A DNA stretch of 64,000 nt from Climacium dendroides. Taxonomy: Eukaryota > Streptophyta > Bryopsida > Hypnales > Climaciaceae. The notes under the pieces are model-generated. The model saw only the letters and a program-made list of their open reading frames with translations, was not told the origin of the DNA and did no database searches. Shown piece by piece: positions 21,696-60,314 of this stretch (the stretch's first letter is position 1; the number at the start of each line of letters is the position of its first letter). A program made the position numbers and the translations under genes. Location: positions 27,793,538 through 27,857,537 of the forward strand of contig OX467091.1 of the NCBI GenBank assembly GCA_950106755.1. Reading direction: 5' to 3'.

Positions 21696-22288
21696 ATGGG
21701 ACGTGCGGCTAGGAGAGGAGGTAGTGATCTAAAAGAGAGACGGATGCCGCAATTAAAGCGCAATCGAAATCAAGGACCAGCGAGCGCTCAGAGGATAGAA
21801 ATTAGAGTAAGGAAAGTGGCTCCTTTAGAGCCCAGTAGTAAGCGGGAGAGAGCCGAATTGATGGAGGACCTCTCTGCCATGGGTTGCGCAGGGTTCCTGG
21901 GGAAGCCCTGGAGGTTTCAGAATGAGGCGATAGTGAGGGAGCTCATCGAAGGAGCCCCTAACTAGTTCGACAACACTATTCGGCCGGTTCTGCCCATGTG
22001 GACCAGGGAGATCTGGAGGAAAGTTTACGAGCTGGAGGAAGGCGACGTGGAACAGGCCAGTCGGAAGGGAGACTTCGTACGTGGAAAGTTCCGGGGAGCA
22101 GCTAACCCCAAGGACGGGTACGCAATCGAAAACTGCGTCAATGCGCGGCACAGGCGACTGTTGGAGTTCCTGGTCCCGATTCTACATTCGAAAAAACCTA
22201 CCCGGATGACTTCCACGCTCGGAAACGCGATCTTTGGAGCCCTGAGCGAAGACAAGCGGATGGATTGGGCGGCATTCATTCAGACGAT
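21696..22288 (+). pseudogene. Gag-like protein of element B, N-terminal part (cut by the hAT element)
   Basis: ATG 21696 opens a basic N terminus, then a domain related to the gag-like protein of element C: MGCAGFLGKPW here against MGCDGLLKVPW there, and IFGALSEDKRMDWAAF here against ILGSLQGKMMMDWAAI there. An in-frame TAG at 21963 lies in the domain. The frame runs straight into the hAT target site (22281-22288) and resumes in the same frame at 40008. I do not know its biochemical role; by position and coiled-coil content it is Gag-like. Confidence 0.7.
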
Positions 22289-22306
22289 CAGGGTTACATG
22301 GACGTC
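22281..22306. other. Left target duplication and left terminal inverted repeat of the giant hAT
   Basis: The 8-bp CAGACGAT (22281-22288) is followed by CAGGGTTACATGGACGT. An 8-bp duplication and CAGGG ends are hallmarks of the hAT superfamily. The same end, CAGGGTTACATG, starts the second copy at 58131. Confidence 0.93.
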
Positions 22307-22735
22307 AGGACGTCCAGCGTCTACGTCCGCCGGTTCCCGAACGTCCGCCGACATAGGACGTTCTGACCGTCCAGCGGACGGGGAGGCGGACGGGGCGGAC
22401 GGGAGGCGGACAGGACGGCGGACGGGGAGGGCGGACGGGGAGCCGGACGGGGAGCCGGACGGGAGGGCGGACGGGGAGGGCGGACGGGGAGCTGGACGGT
22501 AGGGCAGACGGGGAGGGCGGACGAGGAAGGCGGACGGGGAGGGCGGACGGCGAGAGCGGACGGGGAGGGCGGACGGGGAGGCGGACGGGGAGGCGGACGA
22601 GAGGCGGACGGGAGGGCGGACGGGAGGGCGGACCAGGAGGCGGATCGGGAGGCGGATGGGGAGCCGGACGGGAAGGCGGACGGGGCAGACGGGTCGGTGT
22701 GGGGTCGTCTGATCGGGGCATCTGGCGGAAAATGG
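22300..22735. repeat. GC block 1: left subterminal (GGACGG)n repeats of the hAT element
   Basis: After a short unique part (22311-22375, shared with 58172-58235), short units such as GCGGACGGG and GGGAGGCGGACGG repeat to about 22690 on the plus strand. Subterminal short repeats are transposase-binding sites in hAT elements such as Ac, whose protein binds AAACGG; binding here is inferred. Open frames through the block (Pro/Arg/Ala-rich) are not genes. Confidence 0.85.
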
Positions 22736-22739
22736 GGTA

Positions 22740-24150
22740 AACTTCGGTGTAGGTTTAGATGAGTAACATTTGATGTGCACAATTTCATCCAATTTTTTTT
22801 CTTTCAAATTCGAGCAATTTGGCATTATCATCCAATTTTTCTTCAAATTTAACCTATAGATTTGGTGCAGTCCATTTTTTTTTAGGCATTTGGGCCTTCA
22901 ATTGGCCCAAGAAAACAATGGTTCATGGTTCAAACAAATTCAATCATCCAAATAACCATAGGATGTTGTAACCCCTACATGCCCAAGCCTTGTTTTTCAA
23001 ATTTCAACTTCCTCTAATTTGCTCTAAATTGAACAAAGAGCCCACATTTTGGTAAGATGTATCAATTTTTTTGGAATTGTAACCATACAAATTCAAACTA
23101 GACTTGTTAGAGATTGCATAGGAAAAGAAAGCACAACAATATCACTTGTAGAGTGAAAGATTATAACATTTGACAATGATGCTGTTAAAATCACAAAAAA
23201 AAGTTGAAGCCTTTTTGGCAAGGCAAATCTAAAATGTTGGGGACCCAAAGAATATGAGGTTAATGGACCAAACTTGCCCAATCAATTTACAGCTTTGCAA
23301 AATTTACTCTATAATTTTTAATATGAATTTCCAATATGAATTTTCCTCCAAGATCTACTGTATTTGAGGCTCATTTCCAAAAGCTCTTAACACAAAAGAA
23401 AAGTCAAGATTGCACAAGGTACCCTTGCATAATATCTCTTTCAGAAAAATCATTGTCCTTTAATTGCAAGATCGGACTTCTCACTTCTGGAGCCAAAAGT
23501 AGACTTCAAAAAGAATTTCCCAAAATTATTACCTCACTAAAATGATGAAAAATAGTTAGGTTTTACTGAACTTCTAAGTTTTGCAAACACCATATTCAAT
23601 ATTTTGGGTCCTCAAGCATTTAGGGGGTAATTACTATTTTTTTTTAACATGTTAATGAAGCCGACAAACTCGTTGCATGCAAAAAATTAACAACACACCA
23701 TTAATACCAAACAAAAAACCATGCTTCTAGAATCTTGAAGACAATTTACAATTATACATAATACATTGTCCAATTGAATATCTTCAACCATACATGGCAA
23801 ATTCAAGAATTGGAAGACCATACAATTTAAAACAAAAACTTCCCAATCTTGCAAATACCAACTTAAAAAATCACAATTTTCGTAATTGCAGGGTTTTAGA
23901 CTTTTCTATGCAAAATTGCAAACCAACAATGACCAAAGATAGGGACAATTCACACACTTTAAAAATCATTATCAATTAAAATATCCTCGTCAATTACAAA
24001 GGCACATAAAAGTCCAACTACATTGGCATTCATTGGTCTTAAAAAATCAAAATGGTGCACATATGCTATGCAACTATGTAATTCACATACATACTACTTG
24101 GCATCTATGCATACTACCAACCTATATACTTATATGAACTATTCTTGAAC
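22740..24150. other. AT-rich spacer of the hAT left arm
   Basis: No gene is seen. The stretch is nearly identical to 58675-60072 in the second copy. Part of it (about 23060-23450) is also related to about 26400-26770 in the same orientation and to about 29120-29260 in inverted orientation, so this spacer is itself a repeated module of the element. Confidence 0.75.
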
Positions 24151-24151
24151 T

Positions 24152-25639
24152 TCAATATGAACCACGGAAGTGTTCATCTGGAACAGGCCAGTTGAATGAA
24201 GTACTAAAACGGAAGATGACTTGTGCCAAAGTACTCTCTTTGTTTTGAACGCGCTTCAAGTAAGTATCAAACACCTGTGCAAATTGTAGATGGAGGTACT
24301 TGACATGTGGGCTACTTGATTCACGCTGCAATTTGTGATACGCCTTCAACATGCACTGCCTACTGATCCGTTCAGCTAATTTAGCAACAGCATATTGCTC
24401 GGATTGCATGGAAAGAGAAGGGATGTTTTGCACATCCGCATCTCTTCCGTATACATAAGTAACACTGGGATCCACCCACCACCTCATCTTTATAGCTTCG
24501 TCCTTTTCAGCTGTTGATGTGAATGTATACAACGACTTCATAGGCTCGCTCAACACTGTAGTCATTCCCCAATCACAAACTCCAATGTAAACCCGGGACT
24601 CATCTTCAGGAAAATGAAACATGATGTTGTCCGGAGAAATGTCGTTGTGGAGATGTCCAGCGGTGTGCACCGCATTCATGATGTACAGTAATGCCCATGC
24701 AAGCTCCACGCGTTTGGCTCTAAATCGCTTCAGATTTTTAGCAACAATGATTTCTTCTTCTGTTATACGCGGCTCATACAGCACTCGAAGGGCTATATTG
24801 TCTGGATAGTCGTCATCCCGACGCATTATTTCACGCAATGTACCGCCGTTCCACCAGAATGAGTATCCTTCATTCTTTTTGGAATGCACTGCAAAAAAAC
24901 GTATCACTCCAACATGCAGAATCCTTACTGCCATAGTCTCAGTATTGTGTTCCATCTTTGCAAAAGCAGGTCGTTCACCTTCTTGGAGAGACATCTTTGC
25001 TGCAAACTCCCATGATGGATGAATCTCCCCACATCCTTCTATTCGCACTCTCCGAATTGTAGCATAGCCACCCCGCATGATTTTGTTATTTACGGGAATC
25101 ACCGTGGCCGTTTCCGGAAGGGCTATTAGAAGGCGACGTGTATTTTGTGCTTGGTCTATTCCAGGCTTGCTCGTCCACCAACCAATTGACCCTGCTCTAT
25201 TCTGCCTCCTCTTAAATGGTTGGCACCTTTTGGTGAATAAATCCGCTTTCATAATGACATGCTCGAAGGCTTCATCATTTTCGCGTTTCTTCCTCCAATA
25301 TTTATTCAAAATGACCGAAGCATTCCATAATGCATCATGCACCTTGCTGTCAAGAAAGTTGGGGAAATTCTTCTTCTCCGTTTCATCAATCCACTGCGGT
25401 ACGTGCAAGGCGTTCAACATCCTCTACCTCATATCCACGAAGAATTTCTCGATGCAGTCCTCTTCATATCGCACATATTTAGTGTCAAGAGACACTGTAG
25501 TCTCTGTCTCATAAAACTTCACAATCAATTCGATTAAGAATGCTTTGCAACTCTCCGAGGGATTCTCCCTTGTCCACTGAATAGAGGGCACTTTTTTTTT
25601 TTCCTTCGACTCCTTGGAAGCCTTCTTCGCCCTCGGCAT
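24152..25639 (-). pseudogene. Protein-kinase-like cargo gene of the hAT element (one in-frame TAG)
   Basis: One minus-strand frame runs from ATG 25639 to the stop at 24152, broken only by a TAG at 25426-25424; ATG 25420 follows at once and could start a 422-residue product by itself. Counting from that second Met, it shows a glycine loop GGYATIRRV (117-125), an AAK motif with the ATP-binding Lys at about 142, a catalytic loop HNDISPDN (258-265) in place of HRDLKPEN, and DWG (283-285) in place of DFG. All catalytic Lys, Asp, Asn and Asp residues are present, so the fold could be active. The N-terminal 71 codons are Lys-rich with a possible Myb/SANT-like stretch (weak). It starts about 190 bp from a TATA-like motif in GC block 2. 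The substrate is unknown. A second copy of its 3' end is at 60073. Confidence 0.75.
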
Positions 25640-25794
25640 GTTGATAACCCGGTAGAATGATGAATGTCAAAGTTCTATAAAAAAATTGGCAAGAGTTACC
25701 CCAAATATTAGACTCTTACCCACCCAAAGAAAGGAGCCATTGGAGGTCAAACCACCAGCTCTCCGCTCTCTCTTGCATGCAAGGGGGAAGGCAA

Positions 25795-26170
25795 AAGTGA
25801 GAGCGGACGGTCCGTCCGCTTGTCTTATATAAGGCGGACGGCCTCATTCCAGTCCTACAGCGGACGGAGGCCGTCCGATCGGGCGGATTGACTGGCCGTC
25901 CGCCTCTTCCTGGCCGTCCGAGCGGACGGTCTGGGGTTGGCGGCCGCCTCGTCCGGTCCACATGGTCGAACAGAGGCCGTCCGCCTCTTCCTGGCCGTCC
26001 GAGCGGACGGTTTAGGGTTGGCGGACGCCTCGTCCGGTCCGCACGGTCGAACAGAGGCCGTCCGATCGGGTGGACGGGGTGGCCGTCCGCCCCCTCTGGC
26101 CCGTCCGATCGGGCGGACGGACAGTCTGAGTGATCGGACGATCCAGAGGGGGCGATTTTTAGATCGTCCG
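25795..26170. promoter_or_regulatory. GC block 2: (GGACGG/CCGTCC)n upstream of the kinase gene, with TATA
   Basis: Units such as GCGGACGG, CCGTCCGC and GGCCGTCCG occur in both orientations. CTTATATAAG at 25824-25833 is a palindromic TATA-like motif about 190 bp upstream of the kinase ATG (minus strand). I infer a promoter that shares its repeat motif with the transposon ends. Confidence 0.6.
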
Positions 26171-26174
26171 CTTC

Positions 26175-27036
26175 ATTTCTACTGTCTCATTTTTAGGGTG
26201 ATTTTTCCCCCTTTTCATTCAATAAGCTTCATGTAGGTCTTCTTGTTTGGGAGGAATTGGGCATTTGGGCATTTCAATGCCTAATAATTAAAAAAATAGA
26301 CCCAAGGCTTCTTCTCGACTTTCTTCAATTTCTTAAAATTTTTACTTCTAAAGAAATGTCAATATTTTCATTACATTTATCACTTTCTTGGAATTTCGAG
26401 TTTTTAACCGTACAAATTCAAACTAGACATGCTAGACATTATGGAAAAAAAGAAAGCACAACAATATCCCTTATGGAGTTAAAAATTATAATGTTTACCT
26501 ATGAGGGTGTTCAAATTGCAAAAAAGAGTTCAAATATTTCTTGCAAGTCAAACCTATGAACTTCGTGACACAAAAAATTGGAAGGCTTAATGTGTATAAG
26601 CTCAATTACATTAGGGCTAATCAAAATCCACAATACTATTATACAATTCTTCCAAATGAATTTGGATTCTAATTTATTTTCCAGAACTAATTGCATTTCA
26701 ATCTCATTTCCAACTTCCAAGAGCAGGTAAAGAATACAGAAAGTCAATATTGCATTCGGTACCCTTGCACTAAATCTAAAAAAGAAAAAACACTGTCAAG
26801 CATTTCCAAGAAGAGATTTTTGATACTACAACTAAACATGTTCAATAGATGTGCATGTTCAAAGTTTTAAATAGTGACATCATTGACCACTAATGGTCAC
26901 AAAAGTGGTCACCAAAATACATTTAAACAATAATAGTAAATCCATAACCTCTGAATAAGTCAAAAGACATTTTCTACTCTACCCTTAAATAGTTAAATTA
27001 CATTATACTCTATTCTGAATCCGAACTACTATCGTC
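26175..27036. other. AT-rich spacer, related to 22740-24150
   Basis: No gene is seen. About 26400-26770 matches about 23070-23450 (for example the phrases around CAAATTCAAACTAGAC and GAAAGCACAACAATATC), in the same orientation but much more diverged than the 58-kb copy. It is the 3' spacer of gene 2. Confidence 0.65.
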
Positions 27037-27039
27037 ATT

Positions 27040-28116
27040 TCAACCTTCGGGTGTGGGACCGAAGCCACCACATCGCCCATATCCGCCAGACCCTCCTCCA
27101 TGTCCGTAATCGGAGAAGTATGGACCTCCAAATGGTGGAGGTGGATTAGGTGATGCATTTGCCTCGGACCCTCTTATCCCTCGTTCGCTTGAGCCGGTGT
27201 AGTATGAGCTTTCGCGAGGCCCATATGAGTCCGGCCCTCCCGTCCCCGGATAGAATTGCGACCCACCATATTGAGATCCACCGTAGTCCATGAACCTTGT
27301 GCTTCCATGGCTTCCTCGTATGTTTTGGAAGTCATCGTGGGGGCCAGGGCTAAAATGCAAACTTCCTCCTCCATATTGCGGGCAACGCACATCACAATCA
27401 TGACGAGGTGGTGACCGTTGTTGACGCGGGCGACCTTGATCCAAAATACTATTTCTTGTTGCCTCTCGCAATTGATTTTGGAAGTCCAAGTCTTCGCGCT
27501 CTTCTCGACGTACGTGCCTTTGTGGAAGTGGAGGTGGAGGTGGTAAGTCTTCTTCGTCATCATCATCATTGTCCTCTGCATCTGGCAATGGTTCCGGAAG
27601 AAATCCAAATTGACCCCGATTAGACCACTCCGGCATGCAATCGCTTGGGCCAACCCAATTGGTGTCTATCACCGCTTTGTCACAGCTCAATTTGGTCTTC
27701 TTGTCCTTTGCAGGCACCGTACGCCAATCCACATCTTTCTGGAGTACAATCTCCGCCCAAATCATTGCTATGGTGGAATAGTTCATGATATTTGGTTTGG
27801 AAGCACCTAGACCGCAAGATGCCCAAATCTCCTTGTATCTCTGCTTGAAATGTTCACTCTTGCAAGTGTTCATGGGACCTTCCCATCGTCTCACTTATCT
27901 CTCTAATACAACCGTGTTATCTGCTAGCCAGAGTTTCGCAATGTGTGACATTTTCACATACTCTCGGCACGTTGTGCAAGTCCATATTGCTTTGGGCTCA
28001 TATTGCCATCCCTCTTCAGCCACACAGAAGTGGTTGAAGTAGGCGTCCCAATCCATGTCTTGTGATTTTTCCTTCTTCCTCTTCTTCAGCGGATTGGGAA
28101 ATCCTTTTGGAGCCAT
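27040..28116 (-). pseudogene. hAT cargo gene 2: unknown protein with low-complexity tail (one in-frame TAA)
   Basis: ATG 28116-28114 opens a Lys/Arg-rich N terminus, then a domain with WTCTTCREYVKMSHIAKLW and, after one TAA at about 27897, NYSTIAMIWAEIVLQKDVDW. These two blocks match the start of gene 3 (CRKYVKMYHIGKLW and INYSLAGMVYVELILSRQVDW), so the genes are paralogues. An acidic stretch (DDDDEEDLPPPPP) and a long Gly/Tyr/Ser/Pro-rich tail follow. A basic start, a small domain and a low-complexity tail would suit a nucleic-acid-binding nuclear protein, but I do not recognise the family. TATAAAGA at 28338-28331 (minus strand) lies about 215 bp upstream. Confidence 0.65.
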
Positions 28117-28309
28117 GGTAATCCTTCTTTTCCGTACCGAATGCAATGTTTGAGTGAGAAGTTTACAATTTCTATAATTGAGAAGGTGATGAAGAGATTA
28201 CAAAAAATTAAGTTAATTCATTCATAGTTGTTCACGCTCCAAGTCGGAAGGGGCTCACAGATACCAATTGGCGCTGGATGTGCCCACTCCGCAAGGGAAA
28301 CAACTGCGC

Positions 28310-28728
28310 GGAATGGGCCGTCCGCGCCCCTCTTTATACCGTCCACCAATGTTGACATCATTGCCCAAATCCGACGGGCGGACGGGGCGACCGCCAGATC
28401 GGACGGGCAATATGCCCCGGCGCGTCCAATCGCACGGCCTCGACGGACTGCGGACGACTGCATCGGACGGAGCCCGCGGACGGACGCTCTGACCGCGCGG
28501 CGGACGGACAGCGGGCGGCGGACTGTCGGACGGATAGCGGACGGACAGCGGACGGGAGGACGGACAGCAGAGGGGAGGACGGACAGCGGACGGGAGGACG
28601 GACAGCAGAGGGGAGGACGGACAGTGGACAGGAGGACGGACAGCGGACGGGAGGACGGACAGCGGACGGCGGACGGGCGGACAGGTGGACGGCGGACGAG
28701 CGGAGGACGAACGGGCCGTTCTTATACA
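28310..28728. promoter_or_regulatory. GC block 3: (GGACGG)n upstream of gene 2, with TATA
   Basis: The plus strand reads GGCGGACGG, GGACAGCGGACGG and similar units, at their most regular between 28490 and 28690 (about 10-20 bp period). The minus-strand TATAAAGA at 28338-28331 points to gene 2. Overlapping Pro/Arg-rich open frames on both strands are by-products of the repeat. Confidence 0.6.
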
Positions 28729-28729
28729 C

Positions 28730-30830
28730 ATTGAAGTTCATCATGCTCGAGTCAGATTCGTTAAAAATTAATTAAAAAATAAAATAAATATGGCATGTAG
28801 TGAAATTTTCAGAATTTATAACAGGACATAAGTTGAAATCTCAAAAAAAATTGATGAAAACAAATTGAAATCTCATAACAAATCTTAATTAAATGAATTA
28901 AAGCATCCTAAATACTAAATAAGAAAGAAAATTATCTATGAGAATAGAGATTCTAAGTCTAATAATACTTAACCAAGTTGCTATTCTTAGTAGTTTATAT
29001 ATATATATATATAAGTTTATTTTAAATCTAACTTTAGCATCAAAAATCCAATTTTCAAAATGATTGATTATGATTTTCTTATTCAAGATTTTGTACAAGA
29101 GTTTCCATCACAAACTTGACTTTCATAGTGTTGAGGGCTTTTGGAAATGAGCCTCAAATACACTAAATCTTGGAGAAAAAACCACATTAAAGATTCATTT
29201 CAAAAATTGTAGAGTAGATTTTGAAATGCACGTTAGGCCCTTTATCCTCATATTTTTTTGGTGACTTGATTTCCTTCATATTTTTTAAATCTTTCTGTAA
29301 TTAGTTATGAATTTTTTTAAGTTGAAAGGCAACGGTCATTAAAAGTGACCATGTCCTAAAATGTGCTAGTACATTCACTAAAGCAAAATGTACCTCTCCG
29401 TCATGATCACTCTTAGAGCACGGGTGTTCTTAGAGCAACTCCCTTATGGATTTACTTAATTTAATTTTAAAGGAAAATCATCTAAGTGACTACAATAAAG
29501 TACCTATGTTTTAGCATTAAACATGTTGATTACAAATGCATATTCTATATAAGAGGAAAACCAAAATATTAAATTTTTATTTTATTTTTAAGTAATCAAT
29601 AAATAAACTTCTTTTTGTATTTTAGAAATAAAATGTATAGAAATAAAAAGAAAAATGAAACAAAAGAAAAAAATCTTTGTTTTTAATTAAAAAAGAAATA
29701 AAAGATAAACATGCATATTTTTATTGACGTTTTTTAATTGAGCCTTGATAAAATTGAAGAGCACATGAATTGAAAATCCGGCCCAAGGGGTTTAGACTTT
29801 AGATTAAGTAGGGCCGGATGGAAAAAACTAGGGCCGGATTGAAGAATGGATCGAAGGCAAATCTGGCCGGACTTTCATCCGGCCTTAGGCACAGTATAAA
29901 CCCAGCCTTAGATAAAAGAAGAACTTATACATTATACAAATAGAAACTAAAATTTTTTTATTGCTTCACGTTGCAAATTCTCCAAGAAAATATATATATA
30001 TATATATATATATAACAAAAACAAAAAACACAAAAACATATCTTTTATGGATTAGAAGATTATAATGCTTTTCACAATGAATAAGGATTTTACAGTTCTA
30101 CTAATTTCAGAAATGTTGTGAAGTCTTACACTCTTTGTATATCCTTACTTTTAAAACAATCCTAATCAAAAAAGGGCATTACAAAATACAGTACAAACAT
30201 GGCGTTGCAGTGTGTGACATGCATAAGTTATATACATTTTTGGCTTCTCTATAAGTCCATATGTACAAAACACCTTGAAGTCAATGGAAATTGTCCATGA
30301 CGTTCAAAACTAGAACCAAAACCAAACCCCTTGAAGTAATTGTTGTGATTGTAGCACCATCTCAATTTGGTCAATTGGGAATTATAACGTTTCACTTCAT
30401 CACTAATATTGATCATGTTTTTGTTTTTTTCTTTTCCTTCGAAATATCCTACATGATGAAAAAATAAATCAAAAAATAATATCCTTTATATCTAGTTAAA
30501 ATTTGTATGCATACAATTTCAAATGAATAATACAAATTTACAATTTGCTCAAAACAATGGCGTAATCTGAAATGTAGGAGACTAAAAGTTGAGGGTGTTA
30601 GGGTTCTAGGGTTTTAGGGTTTAGGGTCTCACTATAAACTTCAAAGAACTCTAAATGATTATTTAAAATCTAATTATAACTTGTCTATTTCTTATTTTCT
30701 GGGTTAATGAGAAAAGCATAGGATGCTGAAACTTTAATTGACCCCCAAAAAATGACAGTAAGTAAAGGCGGACAAGAAGAATCCTAGGCTTCATGCCAAA
30801 TTCTCAAAAATTTGGACGCCTCGAAATAAT
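28730..30830. other. Central AT-rich spacer of the hAT element
   Basis: This is 2.1 kb without a credible gene. About 29120-29260 is an inverted relative of about 23280-23400, which marks the switch from left arm to right arm. It holds TA microsatellites at about 28997-29012 and 29991-30013. A GGCCGGATG (29812-29820) and CATCCGGCC (29876-29884) pair could form a hairpin. The original centre may have contained another gene that is now lost. Confidence 0.65.
30594..30630 (+). repeat. Short degenerate telomere-like tract (TTTAGGG)
   Basis: Four to five consecutive units close to TTTAGGG (GTTAGGG, TTCTAGGG, TTTTAGGG, TTTAGGG) lie in the middle of the hAT element. The unit is the plant-type telomere motif. 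At this length it is an interstitial relic or chance; it may also be a telo-box-like site. Confidence 0.6.
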
Positions 30831-30837
30831 AGGCGAC

Positions 30838-31145
30838 GGGCTAGGCGGATGGGGCGGACGGGGCGGTCGGATGCAGTCGAGTCGTCCGCTTGGTCGGCGG
30901 ACAGGGTAGCTTTGTCTGCCCGTCCACCGGGCGGACTTGAACGCTGGCCGCTTCGTCGGCGGACGGGGCAGCTTCGTCCGCCCGTCCGCCGGGCGGACCT
31001 GGCTGGCCGGGCCGGCCGTCCGCTTCGGCGGCGGCTGGGGCAGCTCCGTCCGCCCGTCCGCTGGCTCGGGCCACGTCCGCGTGGTCCACGATAGGTCCGG
31101 TCCCGGGCCTCTTTTAGGTCTGGGAGCGGACGGGTATATTGGTGG
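30838..31145. promoter_or_regulatory. GC block 4: mixed GGACGG/CCGTCC repeats upstream of gene 3
   Basis: Units such as GTCCGCCCGTCCGCC and GGGCGGACG are present in both orientations. TATATT at 31135-31140 sits at the downstream edge, about 275 bp before ATG 31415. The pattern (GC repeats, TATA-like motif, 190-280 bp leader, gene) is the same as for the kinase gene and gene 2. Confidence 0.6.
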
Positions 31146-31414
31146 ACGGCCAACACACATCTCCTCACTTTCACTCTTCCATTTGGGAATCACTGCCACG
31201 TCGGATGTGCTACTATTGCTTCATGCGCTAGTTGCTCCTATGTGGTGAAGAGTGGGGGTCATATTTTGATCATACTACATTGGATTTTGGTCCTTGGTTA
31301 CTTACATACGTTTGGAGATAGTAAAGCACATTATATATTTTTGAGAGAACGGGGATTATATATTGGAAATTTCCATTCTAAAATTGCAAGTGAGTACTCG
31401 ACAATCAAGCAGTC

Positions 31415-34400
31415 ATGGCGGGGGCAAGTAGTGCTGCAACTGAAGGCAAGAAGAAGTCAAAGCCAAAGGGCGTTGGTCATGAGCTACGGTTTGACATTTT
31501 GGATGACGTCAGCATCAAGGCTGAGACGGGTTGGGAAAAAGAGGATGTGGAGTATTGGACCTCTAAATTGTGCCGCAAATACGTGAAAATGTATCACATT
31601 GGGAAGTTGTGGCCTCGAGAGTGTCACCCTCTTCACACCCGTGAATATTGTTTTAAACCATTGAATTGCCTCAATGATCATTTTGTGCACCGTTCGATGG
31701 AAGTGTGGAAGGCCTTATTTCCGGAGAAGGCTATGAGCAAGGGCAAAATTAACTACAGCTTGGCAGGCATGGTTTACGTTGAACTCATACTGAGCCGTCA
31801 AGTGGATTGGAGTACGTATCCTACGATAGCGACATTGCCACTTGCGATTGGCAGACGTCAGAAACATATCCCTGATATGTTTCTTCCGAAGGCGCAACTT
31901 CCTGAAGCAAGTGAAAAAAAGAAAGCATTAGAGGATGCTGTGGAATCAATTCAGATCCCTCTTGAAATCCAAGTGCGTCGTACGGAAGTACTGAATGGAA
32001 AGAAAATGGCGGTAGAACCGGTTTGTATGGGGGACCCCACAAAAGGAAGCACTTGTCTTGTGGACGGTGTGGAGGGAGAGGTGTTTTTGACTCCACCGAC
32101 GGATTTGAACCCTACACAAAACGTGTTAGAAGGGGTACCAGAAAGCAACGTTGCAATGAAGCTCCCTCGGCCAACAGAACATGGATCTACATCGATGTCA
32201 CAGAAGCACTAAGAAGAGGATCCTATAAAAGACATTGAAGATAGAGAAGACATTCAAGACGTGAAGGAGGCTCACGCTTATATTGACCGGTTTTTAGCAG
32301 ATACAGCACAAGACATCATGTTTTATGTCCCTCCGTCTCCTAAATCAAGGAAAAAACCAAGCCTACTGTCCAGACTTGAAAATGCAATTCGGACTTCACC
32401 AAACCAAAATGAAGAGCATCCAACTCAACCGACAAATGTAAGGATAGACTCTCAAGACGAGGCTGCTGTAAACAACGACAAAGAGACCCCGATTATCCAA
32501 GATCATCCGTTGCTAGCTTTGTTGGGCCCAGAGGATCTCAAGACTCTACAAAAGATGCCTCCATTAGAAGAGATGGAGAACTTGTTGCAGTGTTCCCTCC
32601 GATGGAATCAATTTGAAATTCAGAGAGAAGCAACAAATGGCGGAAATGAAGGGAGCACTATAAACGAAGGTAGCCCTGAGCATGTAGGAGGAAATCCTAA
32701 TGAAGGTGGCACTACAAATGAAGGACGCAGCTCCACTTTAGGCAATTCAACATTAGGATTTGGCGAGATATTTAGAACGGCGTATTGTCTATCAAGAACG
32801 GCGTATTCTCTATCATGTACAGCTAGAGTTGTGGCTGTATTGACGCTTGCTCTTGCGCAAATAACTGATACATTTACGAAAATGACACCATCCATTCTTC
32901 ATGGTGCTTTGGCTTTCAAAAAGTTTGTCAAGTTTGCGGACAAACTACAAGACGAGAAGTTGGAAGACCTTAAGCAAAAAAAATTTTGGGAACAGTAGAA
33001 TTTGGAGTTGAAGGAGGTGCGTTACTCCAAAGAAGATTATGATGACCTCAAGGCAAAGTATGAGATATTGGAGAGCAAATACAACACGTTGTATTGGAGG
33101 CCGATCCCAAACTTGAAGCCCTTGGGTAATGCCTATGAGAGTGTCAAGAAAAATAACAAGACTTTGAAGCGAACGAATGACAATTTGAAGGCCATGAATG
33201 AGAATCTCAAGGCTATGAATGAGAAGTTGGTGTTGGAGTTGAAGACATGCAAAGAGATGTTAGAAGAGCATCGCAAAACATTGTAGACATTACAGAACGA
33301 GAAGGCAAGTCAACAATCGCTTGGCGAAACAGGGCTATTAGAGGCAAGTGAACCAACACAAGAGAGCGATCAACTATCTCTTCCTCTTGACGAGGGCAAA
33401 GCTGAGGATGGGACCGTAGAACTCCGACAACGCATTCCAAATCCTAAATCCATAGTTCTCCCCTCATTTGAAGATGCTTCCATGCAATCACAAAATCCAG
33501 AAGTTGAAGAGTAAAGGCATCAATTGGACTTGGCAATTCGAGGAAAGAATGAGGCCGAATCAACAATGAAACGAATGATGGAAGTAGGGATACTAAGTGA
33601 AATCCTTCCAAAGGAAAATGCGGATTTACGGTGGATGGTGTGGGTGCAGCAACTATAAGATCATTCCTCAGTATCATCCGGACTCATGAACGGGCTCTTG
33701 AGGTATGCATTGCAATCGGACACAGCATACGAGAATGTGAAGAGTTCTTATGAGCGTTTTGTGGAGAAGTTGGAGGAAGAAAGAAAGGACCCTAATTTAA
33801 AACTTACGGTTTGGGGGAACATGGATAGGATGTATGAGCGGCTAAACCACGGAAAGACCTATGATACGGAGAACATTGATTGGACTTTGGAAGCGGAGGA
33901 AGGATGGGTCCCTTATGGCACGTTGTCAGCTCACTTCTAGCAACATGAGAAGGAGCTTGTGTTAGGAAGTTTTCCAAATACTCCCATCTTGGAGGGTCAT
34001 TGTTCTCTTTGCCAAGGTTGTTTTGGGCCCGAAGGAGCTATAGCATTGGGATAGTGTCGCCATACATTCCATGTGTTTTGCATTCAAAGATCGGCGGAAT
34101 TTCAACGCCGTTGTCCCGAATGCCGTATTCCTCTTAATCCAAGGCTGTATGAAATGCTAGGGATTTTGTACCGTATGCCTACGGGGCACGAATACAATCG
34201 ATGGAACCTTCCACTTGACCAAGAGCCATACAAATTTCAGAACTATTTGCATTGGGGGAAACCAATGAAGTGGGATGCTCGATCATAAATATATGAGCTA
34301 TATGATGGCCCATTTCCCACCAAAGATAAATTCTTTTGGATGACGTCTAACGTGGAGGTTGAGTTGCGTGCCTTCGAGATTAAGAACAACGAGGCTCGAG

Positions 34401-35062
34401 AGTTGTTCTGTCGCAGCATGGGCGGACATTGGAGCACACAGCACCAAAAGTTCTTTCGAATTCCCGAGAAGGAATGGAAGAGAGAGGGTCCAAATGACCT
34501 CTTGGTGGAGGTTGAGTGTGATCCAAAAGTCATAAAGCAATTTGCGGGCTACAATACGGATTTGATAGGGCGGGCCCTCATTTTGTCGAAGTTGGAAGAA
34601 GCAGCAAGAGTTCGTTCTGTGGTGGACCTAAACGGTAAATCATCTACAGAGCATAAAATGGAAGACGTTGCAAGGGCATTTGACATGAACATGAAGGACA
34701 TTATAACTAAGTGGAGGAAGTATCTAGGAGAGGGAGGCGAACAAACTTGGATGATGAAAAGCGAGGATGAAATGATAAAACAACTGATGGATGACATAGA
34801 TTGTGCTGTGAGGGCTTTAAGGGCCCACGAAGTGGAGCTGTCTCCGAAGAAGAAGAATAAACGGAAGATTGAAGAGGAGGATGACCACTCTCCGGAAACC
34901 AAACGACAATTTGAGAGGGTTGACATGCAGGTACAAGCTAACTGCGGAGGGAGCAGCCATGGAAATAGTCCGCAACCGGTGCCTCGTCGAACAAGTAGAA
35001 GACTCATGGCGAGGGAGGGGACATCTCGTGATGCCGAAGAAGATAATAGTGTGTTGAAGTAA
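31415..35062 (+). pseudogene. hAT cargo gene 3: paralogue of gene 2 with coiled coil and RING-like finger; stops in frame
   Basis: A single frame stays open in sense from ATG 31415 to 35062 (1215 codons) with no frameshift, interrupted by TAA or TAG at about 32210, 32996, 33284, 33512, 33656, 33938, 34052 and 34286. Parts in order: Lys-rich start and the domain shared with gene 2 (31500-31815); an acidic middle; a heptad-like coiled coil at 33002-33286 (KNNKTLKRTNDNLKAMNE); a RING-like finger at about 33999-34125 (CSLC, CRHTFHVFC, CPEC), with one stop inside; a C-terminal domain at 34340-34850; and a basic tail (PKKKNKRK), probably a nuclear signal. RING fingers usually recruit E2 enzymes for ubiquitination; that role is inference. 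Some stops sit where Gln or Trp would be expected from context. Confidence 0.65.
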
Positions 35063-35509
35063 TTGTGAAATGTTTAATTTCCTATGTAGTCGTATTTTAA
35101 TGGCACTCAAGATATAATTATGTAGTGTGGGCTTCATTTTTTTTTATGACTAGTAGTATTGTACGTGGCCCACCATGTCCATCATGACTTTTTTGTATTG
35201 CATATACATGTAGTGAAGAAAAACATGTTGCAAGTAATTATTTATTTATTTGAATATATATATATAATGTTTTTATCATAAAATTCATTTTCTTGGACTA
35301 AGTTTTATTGAAAATTTGAAATGTGCATGTTATGCCCAATTTTTAGTGAATTGTGTCGTTGATTGAGAATTTTGTTGTAGTACTTAACACTTGTTTTCTA
35401 CTACTTTCGTAATCTAGTTATCCCTAGGATGGAATGCAACCAACTGAACCAAGAGCCCAAAAGTTCAAAGTAAAGAAATAACTAAGTAAAATTGACCACC
35501 CTAAAAGGC
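35063..35509. other. AT-rich spacer after gene 3
   Basis: This is 3' untranslated-like AT-rich sequence with no gene. A short TA microsatellite lies near 35258-35267. Confidence 0.6.
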
Positions 35510-35725
35510 TAAAACCGCCCTGTCCGCACGACCGACCGTCCGACCCGTTCGACCCGCCCGCCCGTCAGCCCCGTCCACCCCGTCCGCCCTCCTGTCCGCC
35601 CCCCCCGTCCTACTGTCCGCCCCCCCCCGTCCTACCGCCCGCCCCCCCGTCCTACCGGCCGGCCGCCTTGACCGACCCGGCCGACCATCTGTCCGCCCTG
35701 TCCGTCCACCCCATTCGCCGGGTTT
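35510..35725. promoter_or_regulatory. GC block 5: (CCGTCC)n upstream of the hAT transposase
   Basis: The plus strand reads GTCCGCCC, CGTCCTACC and similar units, with C runs of 6-8 bases. It lies about 310 bp before ATG 36039. The orientation (CCGTCC on the coding strand) mirrors the left-arm blocks relative to their genes. A TATATTTG near 35937 could be the TATA box. Confidence 0.5.
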
Positions 35726-36038
35726 TTTGACCGTTGGCAACGGTTACTTCTAAGGCATAGAACATTCAACAAATTAGGAGTATAAGAGCAAGGAAGAAGG
35801 CATTTACAAGCACTTCTGAGAAACTGAACGTTAAGATTTCCAAGGGCTAGGAGCTGCAATCTTTGTGTCCCTTGCTTGGTAATGCATAGTTCAGTGGACA
35901 GGGGGGCTTTGGTTTCCAAGGCTTTGCTTACAGACTATATTTGATACATGTGACATGGTGATTTGAACCTAAACATTTGGAACTAAAGACAAGATTGGAA
36001 CTTGAACTTAGACTTGAACTTGAACGGAGCTTTCCACA

Positions 36039-39000
36039 ATGAGTAAGGATTTTTCCGGTTGGTATGTTGTTCCATCAAGCGGTAAAGTGCAGTGCAAGGC
36101 ATGTGACTTGGTGTTTGCAAATCAAAAGTATCGCATGTTGAGCCACCTTGGATATGAAGGCAAAGACGGTGTTCGCGACAGGGGGGTAAGCATATGTCCA
36201 AAATTGACTTCGTCAATTCGAACTCTTTTTGCCGGTTGTAATGGGTTATTTCCACGAAGATCGGCCCTTGACAATGTAGATGGTGAAAACATAGGGAGGG
36301 TTGCAAGCAATGCCTCAAATGGAAGGGATTTTTCACGTTCAACACAAGAGGACTCGTGTGCAGCGCCGTCTGAAATTCATCGTGCGTCTTCAAGGGTACA
36401 TCAAAGTGTGGAAACATCAAGTGAACAATGTCCAACTCCATCCTCTTCCATCAATCGGTTACGAAGACAAAGTCGGCTAGTAGATGGGTTTGAACAAGCT
36501 GATAGACGCAATTTGAATGCGTTGTGGGCCAATTTCTTCTATTCAGCCAACATACCATTTGCGGTAGCTCGAAGTGAGGCCTTCAAAGAAGCAGTGAAGA
36601 AAACAGCTGAGTTTGGTAAGCCATACAGCCCACCATCATACGACGCTCTACGAACCAAATTACTAGAAGAAGCGAAAGAAGATGTCAAGCTAAAGTTGCA
36701 GAAGAGGACCAAGGATAGTATCAAAAAGTTTGGAGCAACCTTGTCTATTGATGGATGGAGTTCGGTTACAAATCGGCCATTGTATGCTTGTATCTTCTAC
36801 AGGGGAGCAATTTTTGGGATCGGTGGACACAAGTGGGTTCGTAAAAAACGCAGAGTACTTGGCCTCTATTTTGGACAAATTCATACAGGAGGTGGGTCCG
36901 CATAATGTGGTGCAAATAACAACAGACAATGCTCCTATAAACCCTCGAGCATGTAGAATCATAAAAGACAAATATCCTCACATTTCTTTTCAAGGTTGTG
37001 TGGTGCACGCCTTGAATTTGTTGCTAAAAGATTGGGGGAAGGAAGCATGGGTGGCGGATGTCGTGGCCAAAGCTCGTATGGTTCTTACGTTTTTTACAAA
37101 GCGGCACATGCCGCTTGCAATATTTCGTTCATACGAAAAAGAGCACTGCTTATTGATGCCAGGCGAAACAAGATTTGCTTCAAATTTCATTGCGTTTGAA
37201 CGCTTGTTGAAAGTGAAGGGAGCACTTCAACAAAGTGTGACAGATCCGCGTTGGGAACAATATGTGAGGACGTTGGATGACAAGAAAAAGAAGAACCGTA
37301 CAAAGTCTCGGTATACAAAGAAGATAATAAACAATGAGCATTTCTGGAGGCGTTGCACGAATTTTGTGCAATTGATGGGCGTTGTTGTGTATGGCCTTCG
37401 TGATTTAGATGCAAAGACGCCATGTTCAGGGAAAATTTTGCATATTATGAGGAAGATACGGTCGCATGTGGGAGGGTTAGAAAATCCGCCTTTTCTATTG
37501 AGCCCCGAATTTGCCAAACCATTGAAAGAGGCGTTCAACGCTAGATAGGAAATGGTAGAGACCGATCTCCAATATGCAGGAGCTCTTTTGAATCCCTATC
37601 TTTTGCACGATAAAGAACTAGCCGACGATTCAGAGGCCACCGAGGCATGCAAGCGTGTTCTCATGCGAATATGTAAACCTACGGACTACGCGGACGTTGT
37701 CAAGGAATTCATGGCGTTTCGACATAGGGAGCCTCCCTTCCACAACATGTTGGATCCAAGTGAACAAAAATTATCGGCACACGCTTGGTGGGATTTTGAA
37801 GGCGCATGTGGGAAGCTCATTGCTCCAATTGCAAGGAGAATATTGGGCCAACCGGTATCTTCATCTTCATGTGAACGGAATTGGAGTAGCTATTCTTTTG
37901 TTCACAACAAATCTCGGAATAAGTTGAGAACAAAGAGAGCTGTGGATTTGGTGTATGTGTACACTAATTCAAGAGTGTTGGCCGCATCCAAGGAGAGGGA
38001 TGAGAAGAAGTGGTACCTTGAAAATGTAGATTCAGAAGAATCGGAGGGACCAAACAAAGATGACGAGAGCAGCGAAGATGAAGAAGAAGGTGTTCGTGTG
38101 GATGGGAATGAAGCACATGGACAAGAAGCAAATTGGTACGACCCAATATTCAATGAAGAAGAAGATTTGGATGGCAACACATACAATTTTGGAGGTGAAC
38201 CATTTGGAAGAGTAATTATGGATGATGATGACATGGGCAACAATGACCGAGACGAGTACGACTTTCCAATGGACAATAATGATTGTGGAAACGATGAAGG
38301 CGTACCTTCCATAGCAAGGTTTGTAGATGGAAATCGATTTCTAAGTAGTGACAAGGTCCTCAATCTAAATGAAGAGGACGCAAATGTCCAAGCCCTGACT
38401 TCTAATGGAACCATAGCATCCAATGCTAGAACTTCCGAAATAGATGAAGTGATTGGAAGCGGTAGGTCTCCATCCATAGTGGTGGCCCAACTAGAAAAGA
38501 ATGACAACGTTGAGGACCGTGAGCAAATGAATGTGGACAAGATAAGCGTGGAGTCTCTAGGAGGATTGGCAAGCAAAAGCAACAGGGAACCAAGTAGTCT
38601 AAACCATGAAGCGAGTGGGACACAAGACAATGTATGTTCGCGTTTGATAGAATGTGGAAGTCCGAACTTGCTTCACAATGGCCAAGGCACAAAGGAAAAC
38701 ATGACAAGTTTTGTACGTCCACCGCGTAGCATTCCTCCAATAGGTGCACGCTCACTATTTAATAGTGTAAGCACTACTTTGGTGGGTTCAGGAAGTTCTC
38801 AACGTCCGACACGAGCTTCCATCATTTCGAAAGAAATAGAACGTACCGAAAATCGAAGATTGTAGATTTCTTCATTCACCGATGACGAGGAAGATGAGAC
38901 GTTGGCCTCAATGTTAAAGAAGCAAGGAAACCGCCTACCAGCATCTTCAACAAGGCTAGCGGACCCGACACTAGAATCTTCAAATGCTATAGAAGCATTC

Positions 39001-39414
39001 ACTGAAGAAGGGAGAAAGGCAGGGATGGCAATGATGATGGAAGAACCCTCTAAAGCAAAGAACAAATGAGTAATGGAGCCGTTTGCTATCTCTCCAGCGA
39101 AGAAAGTGAATGCAGGAAAACCCCCCCTTGATAAGCGTTTGTCTATTCCAGAACTTCCGTTGAGAAAAGGAAAAGCGGTTGATCGCCTCCGTGAACGTGT
39201 AGGGAAAACCTTGATGAAAGCAAAGAACGAGCAAATGATGGGCAAGCCTAAGAAAGCTCGTGTATCTTCAACAGTACAAGAGAAAAGAGGGGAAACTCAA
39301 ACACTTTCATCAGACGATGAAGAGAACACCATGAGTGATGAAGATGATGGATTCCAATCAAGAGAATACAGTAGCGGGGCAGAGGTGAAAGGAGATAGTG
39401 ATTACCACCCCTAG
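36039..39414 (+). pseudogene. hAT transposase (BED finger, DUF659, dimerisation domain), frameshifted
   Basis: This enzyme cuts and rejoins the transposon ends in the nucleus. ATG 36039 opens a BED-type zinc finger (Cys19, Cys22, His36), then a DUF659-type RNase H core (IDGWSSVTNRPLYACI, then VQITTDNAP and CVVHALNLLLKDWG). Near the end are AWWDFEGACGKLIAPIA and SSSCERNWSSYSFVHNKSRN, the conserved hAT C-terminal dimerisation domain. A frameshift near 36785-36800 moves coding from frame 0 to frame 1. A TAG at 37546 precedes the dimerisation region, and the acidic tail has stops at 38863 and 39067. The gene is inactive as read, although every key block can be recognised. The dimerisation domain is about 60% along; the long Asp/Glu-rich tail is unusual. 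Confidence 0.88.
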
Positions 39415-39794
39415 GCATTCAAATTTAGAAAGGATTTGAATGAAGAACATTTACAAAACTTGGTGCTCAAATGCTTACGATTTAGAGAGATGAATAGCTA
39501 AGATTTATTAGTTCTCGGAGCATTTCTTAGTCGTACAAGGTTGCCAAATTATCTTGAAAAAATTAATGAAACTATCATTTTGGGGGGATTTGGTCCCAAG
39601 TGATATTGAAGAAATCTTCATTGTGTTATTTTTTGTTCTCAATTTCAAGTGTGTAGCACGTAAAAATTTCTGAAGCACCAAAACTCACAAATATGTAAGA
39701 AGAACCCTAAAACAAACTGAAAATCATGCAAAATTGCAAAATGAAAAGTTACAAACCCTCACTCTCTCAGTCGGTCACTCCTAGACTCCCTAAA
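39415..39794. other. AT-rich spacer after the transposase
   Basis: No gene is seen; this is 3' untranslated-like sequence between the transposase stop and the right subterminal repeats. Confidence 0.55.
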
Positions 39795-40000
39795 CCCCTT
39801 GGCCCTTGAACCATTCGCGCGTCCGCCCGTCCGCCCATCCGTCCGCCCGTCCGCTGGCCCGTCTGCCCGTCCGCCAAGAAAAACGGCCATCTGTCCGCCC
39901 GCCCGCCCGCAGGACGGCGACCGAGGACTGTCCGTCTGCGTCCGCAGGGTCCGGACGTCCGATTTTGGACGCAATTTCGCCGCGGACGCACGTCCACGAC
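39795..40000. repeat. GC block 6: right subterminal (CCGTCC)n repeats of the hAT element
   Basis: Plus-strand units GTCCGCCCGTCCGCC run to about 39905 with more scattered CCG/CGG motifs after it. They are in inverted orientation to block 1, as expected for subterminal transposase-binding repeats at opposite ends. Confidence 0.8.
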
Positions 40001-40015
40001 AACCCTGCAGACGAT
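39990..40015. other. Right terminal inverted repeat and target duplication of the giant hAT
   Basis: ACGTCCACGACAACCCTG ends at 40007, followed by CAGACGAT (40008-40015), identical to 22281-22288. Seven terminal bases match the left end exactly, and TGGACGT matches again with a 1-bp offset. Confidence 0.92.
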
Positions 40016-45345: not shown

Positions 45346-46230
45346 GACCGGAATCTGCAAATCCGGTTGTTGGCAATCGAGGATTTGGAAGAAGCTCGGT
45401 CGGAAGCATTGGAAAGAACTATAGTAGTTCAGTCCAAACGCAAGAGTGATTTCGATGCAAGGTTACCCAAAAATCAGTCCAGACTGGAAAGTGAGTGTAA
45501 GTGGATACAAGGTGTACCCAGATGTTGAGTTTATCCGGTCCAGTATTGGATTAGTGTGTGTGGGCAGAGGCAGAAGGGATCTCTAGTGTGGACTCGGAAT
45601 GGACTCAGAAGGAGTACGGAGGAGGGGTACTCTCCGAAAAGAGTAAGGGTTAGCATGCCTCCGCAGCGCTTGTTTCTCCTTATTGTCCCCGCTAGTTCAG
45701 ACCGGATTTAGGACTAACTTAGTAGGCTGTCGTTGTAGCATTGGTTAGGAGGAATTAGACCGGCTTGCGTGACCTGGTGGACACGACTGCGTTTCCTTTC
45801 CAATTGTGAGGACGGTCTGTTTTCTCATTTGTAGGATTTGAAAGTTTATTTTTGAAAGTTTGATCACATAGTGAAACTTCTGACACTTTAAAATCGGAGG
45901 GTAGGAGTTAAGCTTCCTTCTTAAATCCCAATTAGCAGATCCCTCTTTGTTTAGAGGTTAAACTTGACATGGTTACGAGTAGAGATCTGGACCGAATGTG
46001 AATACTAGAGGTTAAGGTTAGATCTGTGGAAACGCGGATCCCGGTTACGGTCTGTAAAACGTAAATACGGGATACTACTTGAGGTATGTGAACAGAAGTG
46101 TTGGGAGAGTTACGAGGTAGTAAACTAACCAGTTAGAGAGTCTGTGTGATAAACAAGTGGGTGTTAAACTGGATTAAATCCGGTCAGTGTTGTTAGATCA
46201 GGAAGATCCGGTCTAACGTGTATTAGTAAT
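45346..46230 (+). other. Element A 3' non-coding region
   Basis: No gene is seen beyond a decayed extension of pol to about 45525. ATCGGAGGGTAGGAG at about 45893-45907 is purine-rich and the best polypurine-tract candidate. If it is the real one, the 3' LTR starts near 45912 and is about 555 bp, and the 5' LTR is truncated. Confidence 0.5.
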
Positions 46231-46466
46231 TGTTGGACCGGAGGGATCCGGTCATGTTTGTCCAAGGAAACAAGGAGACCAAGCGGAAGTTCCGGTCTAT
46301 TGTTTTGCTTGGGGTTTTGTGTTTTGTGACCATCACTCTACCATTTTCCGGTAATTGTGAACCTAGGAATTCGATCTTCGTGGGAACGATACTCGAGTCA
46401 CTTTAAGGCCTCTTTTAAGAAATATTGAGCCTTAGAGAAGGATTTTTGCTTTCCTGTGCTACGACA
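46231..46466 (+). repeat. 3' LTR (or its 3' part) of element A
   Basis: TGTTGGACC to CTACGACA, matching 17463-17707. It lacks a 9-bp GTGTTT-region insertion present in the other copy, and otherwise differs at a handful of transition sites. Confidence 0.85.
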
Positions 46467-52907: not shown

Positions 52908-52970
<63 letters not shown>

Positions 52971-53690: not shown

Positions 53691-53746
<56 letters not shown>

Positions 53747-55553: not shown

Positions 55554-55676
55554 TAAAAAACAACTGCAAGATGTAGATTTTTAATTTTGACAATTTTTAT
55601 AAACAAACCAACCTAAAATATGAATGAATATACTTAAAAACAATAGTTTATTTTTTAATTACTAAAGCATACTTGA

Positions 55677-58130: not shown

Positions 58131-58199
58131 CAGGGTTACATGAACGTCTGGACGTTCGGACGTTCGGATGGACGTCCAGCGTCTACGTCCGCCGGTTCC

Positions 58200-58530
58200 T
58201 GAACGTCCGCTGACATAGGACGTTCCGACCGTCCCCGTCTAGTGGATGGGGCGGACGGGAGGCAGACAGGAGGGCGGACGGGGATCTGGACGGGAGGGCG
58301 GACGGGGAGGGCGGATGGGGAGCTGGACGGGAAGGCGGATGGGGAGGGCGGACGAGGAGGGCGGACGGGGAGGCGGACGGGGAGGGCGGACAGGGAGGGC
58401 GGATGGGGAGGTGGACGGGAGGCGGACGGGAGGGCGGATGGGGAGGCGGACGGGGAGGTGGACGGGGAGGCGGACGGGGCAGACGGGTCGGTGTGGGGTC
58501 ATCCTATCGGGGCGTCGGGCGGAAAATGGG
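58200..58530. repeat. GC block of the second hAT copy
   Basis: GGACGGG and GGGAGGCGGACGG units on the plus strand, homologous to block 1 but shorter and with different unit order, so the array changes length between copies. Gly/Arg-rich open frames across it are not genes. Confidence 0.85.
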
Positions 58531-60072
58531 ATAAACTTCGGTGTAGGGATGAAACCATGGGTTTAGGTCCAATTTTTGGAGAATTGCTAAAGTGGCAATA
58601 TATGACAAAATAATGTTACTAAATTTTTTAGTATTCATTTATATTTTGGATAGAACTATCTTTTCATCGACATATTTAGATGAGTTACATTTGATGTACG
58701 CAATTTCATCCAATTTTTTTTCTTTCAAATTCGAGCAATTTGGCATTATCATCCAATTTTTCTTCAAATTTAACCTATAGATTTGGTGCAGTCCATTTTT
58801 TTTTTAGGCATTTGGGCCTTCAATTGGCCCAAAAAAACAATGGTTGATGGTTCAAACAAATTCAATCATCCAAATAACCATAGGATGTTGTAACCCCTAC
58901 ATGCCCAAGCCTTGTTTTCAAATTTCAACTTCCTCTAATTTGCTCTAAATTGAACAAAGAGCCCACATTTTGGTAAGATGTATCAATTTTTTTGGAATTG
59001 TAACCATACAAATTCACACTAGACTTGTTAGAGATTGCATAGGAAAAGAAAGCACAACAATATCACTTGTAGAGTGAAAGATTATAACATTTGACTATGA
59101 TGTTGTTAAAATCGCAAAAAAAAGTTGAAGCCTTTTTGGCAAGGCAAATCTAAAATGTTGGGGACCCAAAGAATATGAGGTTAATGGGCCAAACTTGCAC
59201 TACCCCAATCAATTTACAACTTTACAAAATTTACTCTATAATATTTTAATATGAATTTCCAATGTGAATTTTCCTCCAAGATCTACTGTATTTAAGGCTC
59301 ATTTCCAAAAGCTCTTAACACAAAAGAAAAGTCAAGATTGCACAAGGTACCCTTGCACAATATCTCTTTCAAAAAAATCATTGTCCTTTAATTACAAGAT
59401 CGGACTTCTGGAGCCAAAAGTAGACTTCAAAAAGAATTTCCCAAAATTATTAGCTCACTAAAATGATGAAAAATAGTTAGGTTTTACTGAACTTCTAAGT
59501 TTTGCAAACACCATATTTAATATTTTGGTGCCTCAAGTATTTAGGGGGTAATTACTATTTTTTTTTAACATCTTAATGAAGCCGACAAACCCGTTGCATT
59601 CAAAAAATTAACAACACACCATTGATACCAAACAAAAAACCATGCTTCTAAAATCTAGAAGACAATTTACAATTATACATAATACATTGTCCAATTGAAT
59701 ATCTTCAACCATACATGGCAAATTGAACAATTGGAAGACCATACAATTTAAAACAAAAACTTCCCAATCTTGCAAATACCAACTTAAAAAATCACAGTTT
59801 CTGTAATTGCAGGGTTTTAGACTTTTCTATGCAAAATTGCAAACCAACAATGACCAAAGATAGGGACAATTCACACACTTTAAAAATCATTATCAATTAA
59901 AATATCCTCGTCAATTACAAAGGCACATAAAAGTCCAACTACATTGGCATTCATTGGTCTTAAAAAATCAAAATGGTGCACATATGCTATGCAACTATGT
60001 AATTCGCATACATACTACTTGGCATCTATGCATACTACCAACCTATATACTTATATGAACTATTCTTGAACT

Positions 60073-60314
60073 TCAATATGAACCACGGAAGTGTTCATCC
60101 GGAATAGGCTAGTTGAATGAAGTACTAAAACGGAAGATGACTTGTGCCAAAGTACTCTCTTTGTTCTGAACGCGCTTCAAGTAAGTATCAAACACCTGTG
60201 CAAATTGTGGATGGAGGTACTTGACATGTGAGCTACTTGATTCACGCTGCAACTTGTGATACGCCTCCGACATGCACTGCCTACTGATCTGTTCAGCTAA
60301 TTTAGCAACAGCAT
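60073..60314 (-). pseudogene. 3' fragment of the kinase-like cargo gene, second copy
   Basis: This matches the last 80 or so codons of the gene at 24152-25639 (AERISRQCM... to ...EHFRGSY) with few differences. A Trp codon near the end has become TAG. The 5' part is displaced by element C, inserted at 60314/60315. Confidence 0.85.

Follow-up and report, generated by a model that had tools for sequence, protein, structure and literature searches.

What kind of unit is a 17.7-kb insertion in the genome of the moss Climacium dendroides that has the ends of a hAT transposon and holds several genes besides a transposase? hAT elements are textbook one-gene transposons. The canonical ones (Ac, Hermes) have CAG-type ends and one main gene, which encodes a transposase with DDE residues and an hATC domain. 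The insertion lies in the window, by which we mean the whole analysed stretch of 64,000 nucleotides (assembly GCA_950106755.1, contig OX467091.1, positions 27,793,538 to 27,857,537 of the forward strand), and its features are given in window coordinates. We propose with good confidence that it is one copy of a multi-gene, high-copy moss hAT lineage, which would regulate itself and have an accessory kinase and an accessory RING protein.

The boundaries of the element are as follows.

22289..40007, plus strand: hAT element of 17,719 bp, defined by its ends and its copies
22281..22288, no strand: left target site duplication (TSD), CAGACGAT
40008..40015, no strand: right TSD, CAGACGAT
22289..22295, plus strand: left terminus CAGGGTT, the core of the terminal inverted repeat (TIR)
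40001..40007, minus strand: right terminus AACCCTG, the inverted CAGGGTT

The layout is exact at both sides and reads CAGACGAT, CAGGGTTACATGGACG... ...CGTCCACGACAACCCTG, CAGACGAT. Over a longer distance, CAGACGAT is followed from 22289 by CAGGGTTACATGG, and CGACAACCCTG runs up to 40007 before the second CAGACGAT. The inverted match between the two ends comprises 7 exact bases, and beyond them there is loose likeness only. These are TIRs of the CAG...CTG type found in hAT elements, and identical ends occur in the copies. When the element and one TSD were removed in silico, a 223-codon frame was obtained across the junction, with 107 codons from the left and 116 from the right. Residues 80-156 of the restored frame, with the junction at position 107, resemble another frame of the window, which is of Ty3 type (35% identity over 79 amino acids, E = 2e-13), and the interrupted host is therefore most likely a Ty3-type retrotransposon. 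In addition, reverse transcriptase and integrase frames lie after the element, at 42.9-45.3 kb. The initial annotation of this locus had described a hAT transposon with base-exact ends, an 8-bp duplication and an unbroken host frame. The ends, the duplication and the frame through the junction stand as it gave them, and the hAT identity is borne out by the TSD, the CAG-type ends and the DDE/hATC transposase.

Is the insertion mobile as a whole? We searched the 412.6-Mb, 123-contig assembly that holds the window; the counts from these searches are lower bounds, being matches scored among more candidates. The left end was found again at at least 40 places (40 scored of 340 candidates). Ten of them were examined as 20-kb stretches, four of which were extended at the right end, and the parts of the element were present in the same order in all ten. 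Long segments were about 90-98% identical to the window copy, and the terminal repeat arrays were 73-88% identical. Some copies contain nested insertions, and C40_28.2M is without about 280 bp. A perfect 8-bp TSD, the length typical of the hAT superfamily, was found in 10 of 11 elements (the window and the ten copies), and every octamer was different. The sole exception, C34_3.9M, has an altered right end and no TSD. Furthermore, a second set of 20 left-end places was studied by the left flank and a 1.2-kb piece at the expected right end. Element sequence was present at the expected right end in 13 of the 20, and both exact ends in 6; the TSD was perfect in 2 of these 6, matched at 7 of 8 bases in 2, and was absent in 2. 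The 17.7-kb unit occurs repeatedly as a whole, and the 8-bp target duplications around it differ.

Comparison of reading frames over the copies revealed four long single-exon genes in the order K-A-BC-T, where T is the transposase gene.

24152..25639, minus strand: protein kinase gene K of 495 codons; codon 72 is an in-frame stop in the window copy
27010..28116, minus strand: gene A of 368 codons; its N-terminal domain and that of BC are paralogues; two in-frame stops in the window copy
31415..35062, plus strand: gene BC, with the domain shared with A and a RING-H2 finger; the reference copy has about 1,207 codons, and the window copy has eight in-frame stops
34001..34126, plus strand: RING-H2 finger of BC
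36039..39414, plus strand: hAT transposase gene, with N-terminal CCHC finger, DUF659, DDE and hATC; frame break at about 36.8 kb and three in-frame stops in the window copy

The assembly contains at least 87 matches of the kinase (87 scored of 785 candidates; 15 of the 87 without stops), at least 41 of the transposase (41 of 1,117) and at least 105 of gene A (105 of 927; 39 of the 105 without stops). A listed kinase lies near 26 of the 40 left ends, 25 times at 1.8-2.5 kb and once at 5.7 kb, and 4 of the 14 left ends without a listed kinase still have kinase frames in the examined DNA. In addition, for 25 of the 41 transposases a kinase is listed at a distance of 9.8-28.8 kb, on the other strand (shifted control: mean 0.22, maximum 3). 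It is extremely unlikely that this picture arose from faulty assembly, or from chance matches to the ends on either side of unrelated genes, because the unit recurs on several contigs with different perfect TSDs and the spacing of its genes is near-constant. The initial annotation had suggested looking for copies with both termini and comparing their gene content. Such copies exist, and the inner genes travel together as one unit in all ten that were examined.

The window itself holds a truncated second copy.

58131..60314, plus strand: left end and the adjoining 2.1 kb or so, with 96% identity over 1.6 kb

Beside this fragment, no right end was noticed.

The transposase gene sits between the CAGGGTT ends and combines a CCHC finger, DDE residues and hATC. 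The reference transposase has 1,127 codons and is open throughout in C41_27.9M, and that of C38_0.6M has zero in-frame stops and one frame break. It matched the Pfam families DUF659 (E = 1.7e-35) and hATC (Dimer_Tnp_hAT, E = 6e-7, above the cut-off), and nothing among PDB sequences up to E = 0.1. In the protein searches for BC and the transposase, scoring was restricted to the candidates with the most words in common with the query, and the numbers of homologues given here are therefore minimum values. At least 34 homologues of the transposase were found, and 32 of them were aligned with the reference. D243 and D304 are present in all 33 sequences and E620 in 32; on the basis of their motifs, we take these to be the DDE residues. 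The finger residues C24, C27, H41 and C58 are kept in 30-31 of the 33. The protein is a DDE transposase with an hATC dimerisation domain, as in other hAT elements.

The product of gene K shows the features of eukaryotic kinases, namely the catalytic K, HxD, N, DxG and the bilobal fold. K142, D260, N265 and D283 are invariant among 32 sequences (the window and 31 of 61 homologues). The structure was predicted with a mean confidence (pLDDT) of 85.6, and the best PDB structure matches were protein kinases (E = 1.5e-9, TM score about 0.6 to the target). The Pfam Pkinase match stays below the cut-off, PDB sequences matched only at E = 0.09, and a scan against viral contigs gave no match. The gene is open in copy C33. 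The 61 homologues comprise two Ceratodon purpureus proteins and many unnamed metagenome proteins. The former (KC19_VG055000 and M758_3G001500), known here by protein only, share 44-47% identity with the window kinase over 98-100% of its length and are named hypothetical or kinase-domain proteins. The cluster of one Ceratodon purpureus relative (P0034) comprises 126 member sequences, and we read it as a probable repeat. Furthermore, the kinase P0040 and the transposase P0074 are each listed on an 'ena' metagenome contig of exactly 27,639 bases. They very probably share one contig, which would link the two genes there as well. Meanwhile, one kinase of the K family (P0005) is filed under a Bacilli metagenome-assembled genome, probably by plant contamination of the metagenome bin.

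For BC, at least three homologues were found, 38-45% identical over 97-99% of the query. The 8 RING ligands (C3H2C3) are invariant in three BC homologues, which is the RING-H2 pattern. The Pfam matches of this finger are below the cut-off, and its PDB RING matches reach E = 5e-4. BC has at least one stop in each of the 11 copies, and the copy in a second family, described below, is an open frame of 1,225 amino acids. About 125 N-terminal residues of A match the N-terminus of BC (36%, E = 1e-17), and A is without stops in 3 of the 11 copies. Besides the transposase, the element encodes a kinase with its catalytic residues, the RING-H2 protein BC and the BC-related protein A.

Are these genes peculiar to one family? 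The BC homologue P0065 led to at least 37 loci in the same genome (37 scored of 1,444 candidates), with an open frame of mostly 1,225 amino acids. At the one locus of this second family that was examined (L073), the left end is CAGGGTTGTCTCGGACG; next come an array, BC and a transposase with 60% identity to that of the window family. Compared with eight further loci (a 1.6-kb piece each), the homology runs on past the examined L073 stretch. The kinase homologue P0020 gave 87 matches, 63 of which are a second kinase type, separated by open-frame length. This type lies 10.5-14.8 kb downstream of BC, on the opposite strand, at 27 of the 37 BC loci, and none of the listed matches lies within 12 kb on the other side of the 37. 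We considered that the second family lacks the kinase and rejected this, because the element continues rightward and the kinase lies there. Both families link the RING protein with the transposase and the kinase. The kinase is at the left in the window family and at the right in the second (BC-T-K); judged from order and strand only, K-A-BC-T and BC-T-K may be circular permutations of each other. Left of the second-family element, Helitron helicase-like frames were seen by eye at L073 3353-4285 and 8048-8902 (minus strand).

How could such a set of genes be coordinated? The short motif GGACG/CGTCC forms arrays in the element.

22300..22682, no strand: left subterminal array, 29 GGACG/CGTCC
25805..26169, no strand: array 5' of K, 21 GGACG/CGTCC
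28319..28709, no strand: array 5' of A, 26 GGACG/CGTCC
30814..31148, no strand: array 5' of BC, 13 GGACG/CGTCC
35537..35707, no strand: array 5' of the transposase gene, 7 CGTCC
39820..39995, no strand: right subterminal array, 12 GGACG/CGTCC

These six are all the clusters of three or more in the element, two of them terminal and four at 166-332 bp upstream of the start codons, one per gene; elsewhere the motif stands alone or in pairs. Of 6 further copies counted, 5 have six clusters in identical order. The layout was matched by 10 of 1,000,000 random placements (two of the start codons used here were misplaced by about 10 bp), and three of the four inner arrays exceed all of 200 dinucleotide-based shuffles. 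This suggests that an end-binding motif may be reused at promoters. In Hermes, BED fingers of the transposase read the subterminal repeats (PMC10368747), and for this reason we propose a similar binding, shared here by ends and promoters. The transposase finger would bind the arrays near the two termini. Since each gene is preceded by an array of this kind, such binding may also control transcription, and the element would run its own small regulon. Rather than being cargo captured from the host, the kinase and the RING protein may be accessory functions by which transposition is increased or timed, and the transposase or host silencing or repair factors are possible targets of phosphorylation or ubiquitin tagging. 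These roles of the kinase, A and BC are what we infer. A fuller version, in which the end motif coordinates four genes, the kinase and the RING ligase control transposition or host silencing, and the gene orders were permuted via a reopened joined-end circle, is tentative, and we regard it as rather unlikely in its entirety.

The inner arrays could also be relic termini of smaller hAT elements, nested or adjacent, that later moved as one. They resemble the left end (element positions 18-301 against 6145-6427, 69%), the minus-strand gene A is paralogous to the N-terminus of the plus-strand BC in inverted orientation, and in L073 the left terminus is immediately followed by the array 5' of BC. 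However, the transposase gene of L073 likewise has an array on its 5' side, and this one lies between genes. Furthermore, the interior is common to all examined copies, and a look by eye inside the element found no CAGGGT pair flanked by a separate 8-bp duplication. We consider such a composite somewhat unlikely as an explanation of the element. Inner genes as nested insertions, which the initial annotation had also thought of, were rejected for the present unit, since inner CAGGGT/ACCCTG sites with a duplication were not found by eye and the interiors are shared; they are kept as possible history. A composite origin in the past is compatible with a self-regulated multi-gene lineage.

Since stops, and in the transposase a frame break as well, interrupt all four genes of the window copy (one in K, two in A, eight in BC, three in the transposase), this copy is very probably dead. 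Intact frames of K, A and the transposase occur in other copies. The mostly decaying copies fit the pattern of a recent burst from few intact sources. In addition, non-coding substitutions are mostly C-to-T and G-to-A and are highest at CpG, which would fit methylated, silenced elements.

Several points weigh against the proposal of a self-regulated lineage with accessory genes. For the array model, a Pfam search gave no BED match for the N-terminal finger of the transposase, copy C33 is without a cluster of three or more before the transposase, the window array at this position is not above shuffles (7 versus a mean of 4.0 and a maximum of 14), and the motif is GC-rich. For the genes, the domain shared by A and BC yielded an unusable predicted model (pLDDT 38). 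Apart from its match to the N-terminus of BC, gene A was not observed in the examined stretch of the second family; the 105 scored matches of A are all 90-100% identical to the query, with no second-family A among them. Thus, A may not be universal to the lineage. Relative to a CpG-aware neutral expectation derived from the non-coding parts of the element, the ratios of nonsynonymous to synonymous changes were 0.88 for K, 0.94 for A, 0.77 for BC and 0.78 for T, and those of stops were 0.97, 0.71, 1.00 and 0.93, respectively. The pooled pN/pS (nonsynonymous to synonymous differences) over 11 copies was 0.59 for K, 0.72 for A, 0.48 for BC and 0.55 for T. Clear selection is not visible within the burst of 11 copies, and substitutions are near-neutral; thus, comparing copies alone does not show a need for K, A or BC. 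Constraint on the genes would be read only from distant homologues (about 35-70% identity) with invariant functional residues.

The near-neutral decay of all four genes within the burst is also what may be expected of an ordinary hAT with captured host genes as passive cargo, in which K, A and BC have no role in transposition. Pack-type elements are one model for this: they contain captured host gene fragments without their own transposase. The genes of the moss element are full-length, and a transposase gene is among them. Another model is given by large hAT elements of fungi that carry passenger genes, and the closest described element that we found is ToxhAT, a 14-kb hAT-type element of fungal wheat pathogens (PMC6737239). 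Both elements are large and place a hAT transposase and several other genes between TIRs, and ToxhAT differs in having eight genes, including ToxA, MFS, Patatin-TPR and a Tc1 transposase, together with internal TIRs and inverted repeats; parts of it were reported separately in other fungi (PMC6737239). The moss set of kinase, A, RING protein and transposase is high-copy and partly common to two families. Its genes are not unrelated passengers found separately, being linked in two families, although free-standing host copies were not searched for separately. We regard passive cargo as quite improbable: the RING protein is linked with transposase and kinase in two families whose gene orders differ, kinase and transposase very probably also stand together on the 27,639-base contig, each gene has its own terminal-type array, and the kinase relative P0034 belongs to the 126-member cluster that we read as a repeat. 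The initial annotation had counted a transposase and at least three other genes, one of them kinase-like, and the three others are K, A and BC. Its term cargo is misleading, because the extra genes are a standing set in many copies and not a one-off pick-up, and the linkage in the second family undercuts it further.

The proposed self-regulated lineage can be compared with better known transposons. Several plant DNA transposons have two proteins, such as TnpA and TnpD of Spm, mudrA and mudrB of MuDR, and the transposase and Myb-like protein of Harbinger. They resemble the moss element in having an accessory protein beside the transposase, and TnpA of Spm recognises subterminal motifs and has its own promoter as a target. 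However, they belong to other superfamilies and are not known to have a kinase or a RING-H2 protein. To our knowledge, no canonical hAT has kinase or RING genes. Ac and Hermes share the 8-bp target site with the moss element, and the subterminal repeats of Hermes are read by a BED-type finger (PMC10368747), but both elements are shorter, Ac being 4.6 kb (PMC3260210). In the open-licence PMC literature, we found no moss multi-gene hAT and no hAT with kinase and RING genes.

DUF7869 is a domain of plant transposon proteins, and outside the element a frame at 14711-15388 matches it just under the cut-off. The window starts with a tandem array of a 90-bp satellite (1-13308; 148 copies, 93% matches). 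At 46000-58000, there is an AT-rich block (23-30% GC) with few short frames and repeat-rich flanks, perhaps a genic island. An Rfam scan of the window gave no match, and NCBIfam gave only weak matches far below the cut-off, which were not used.

If our reading is true, the hAT superfamily can evolve a multi-gene, self-regulated programme. Furthermore, there would be a ready explanation for repeated 'kinase' gene families in mosses, for example the Ceratodon cluster.

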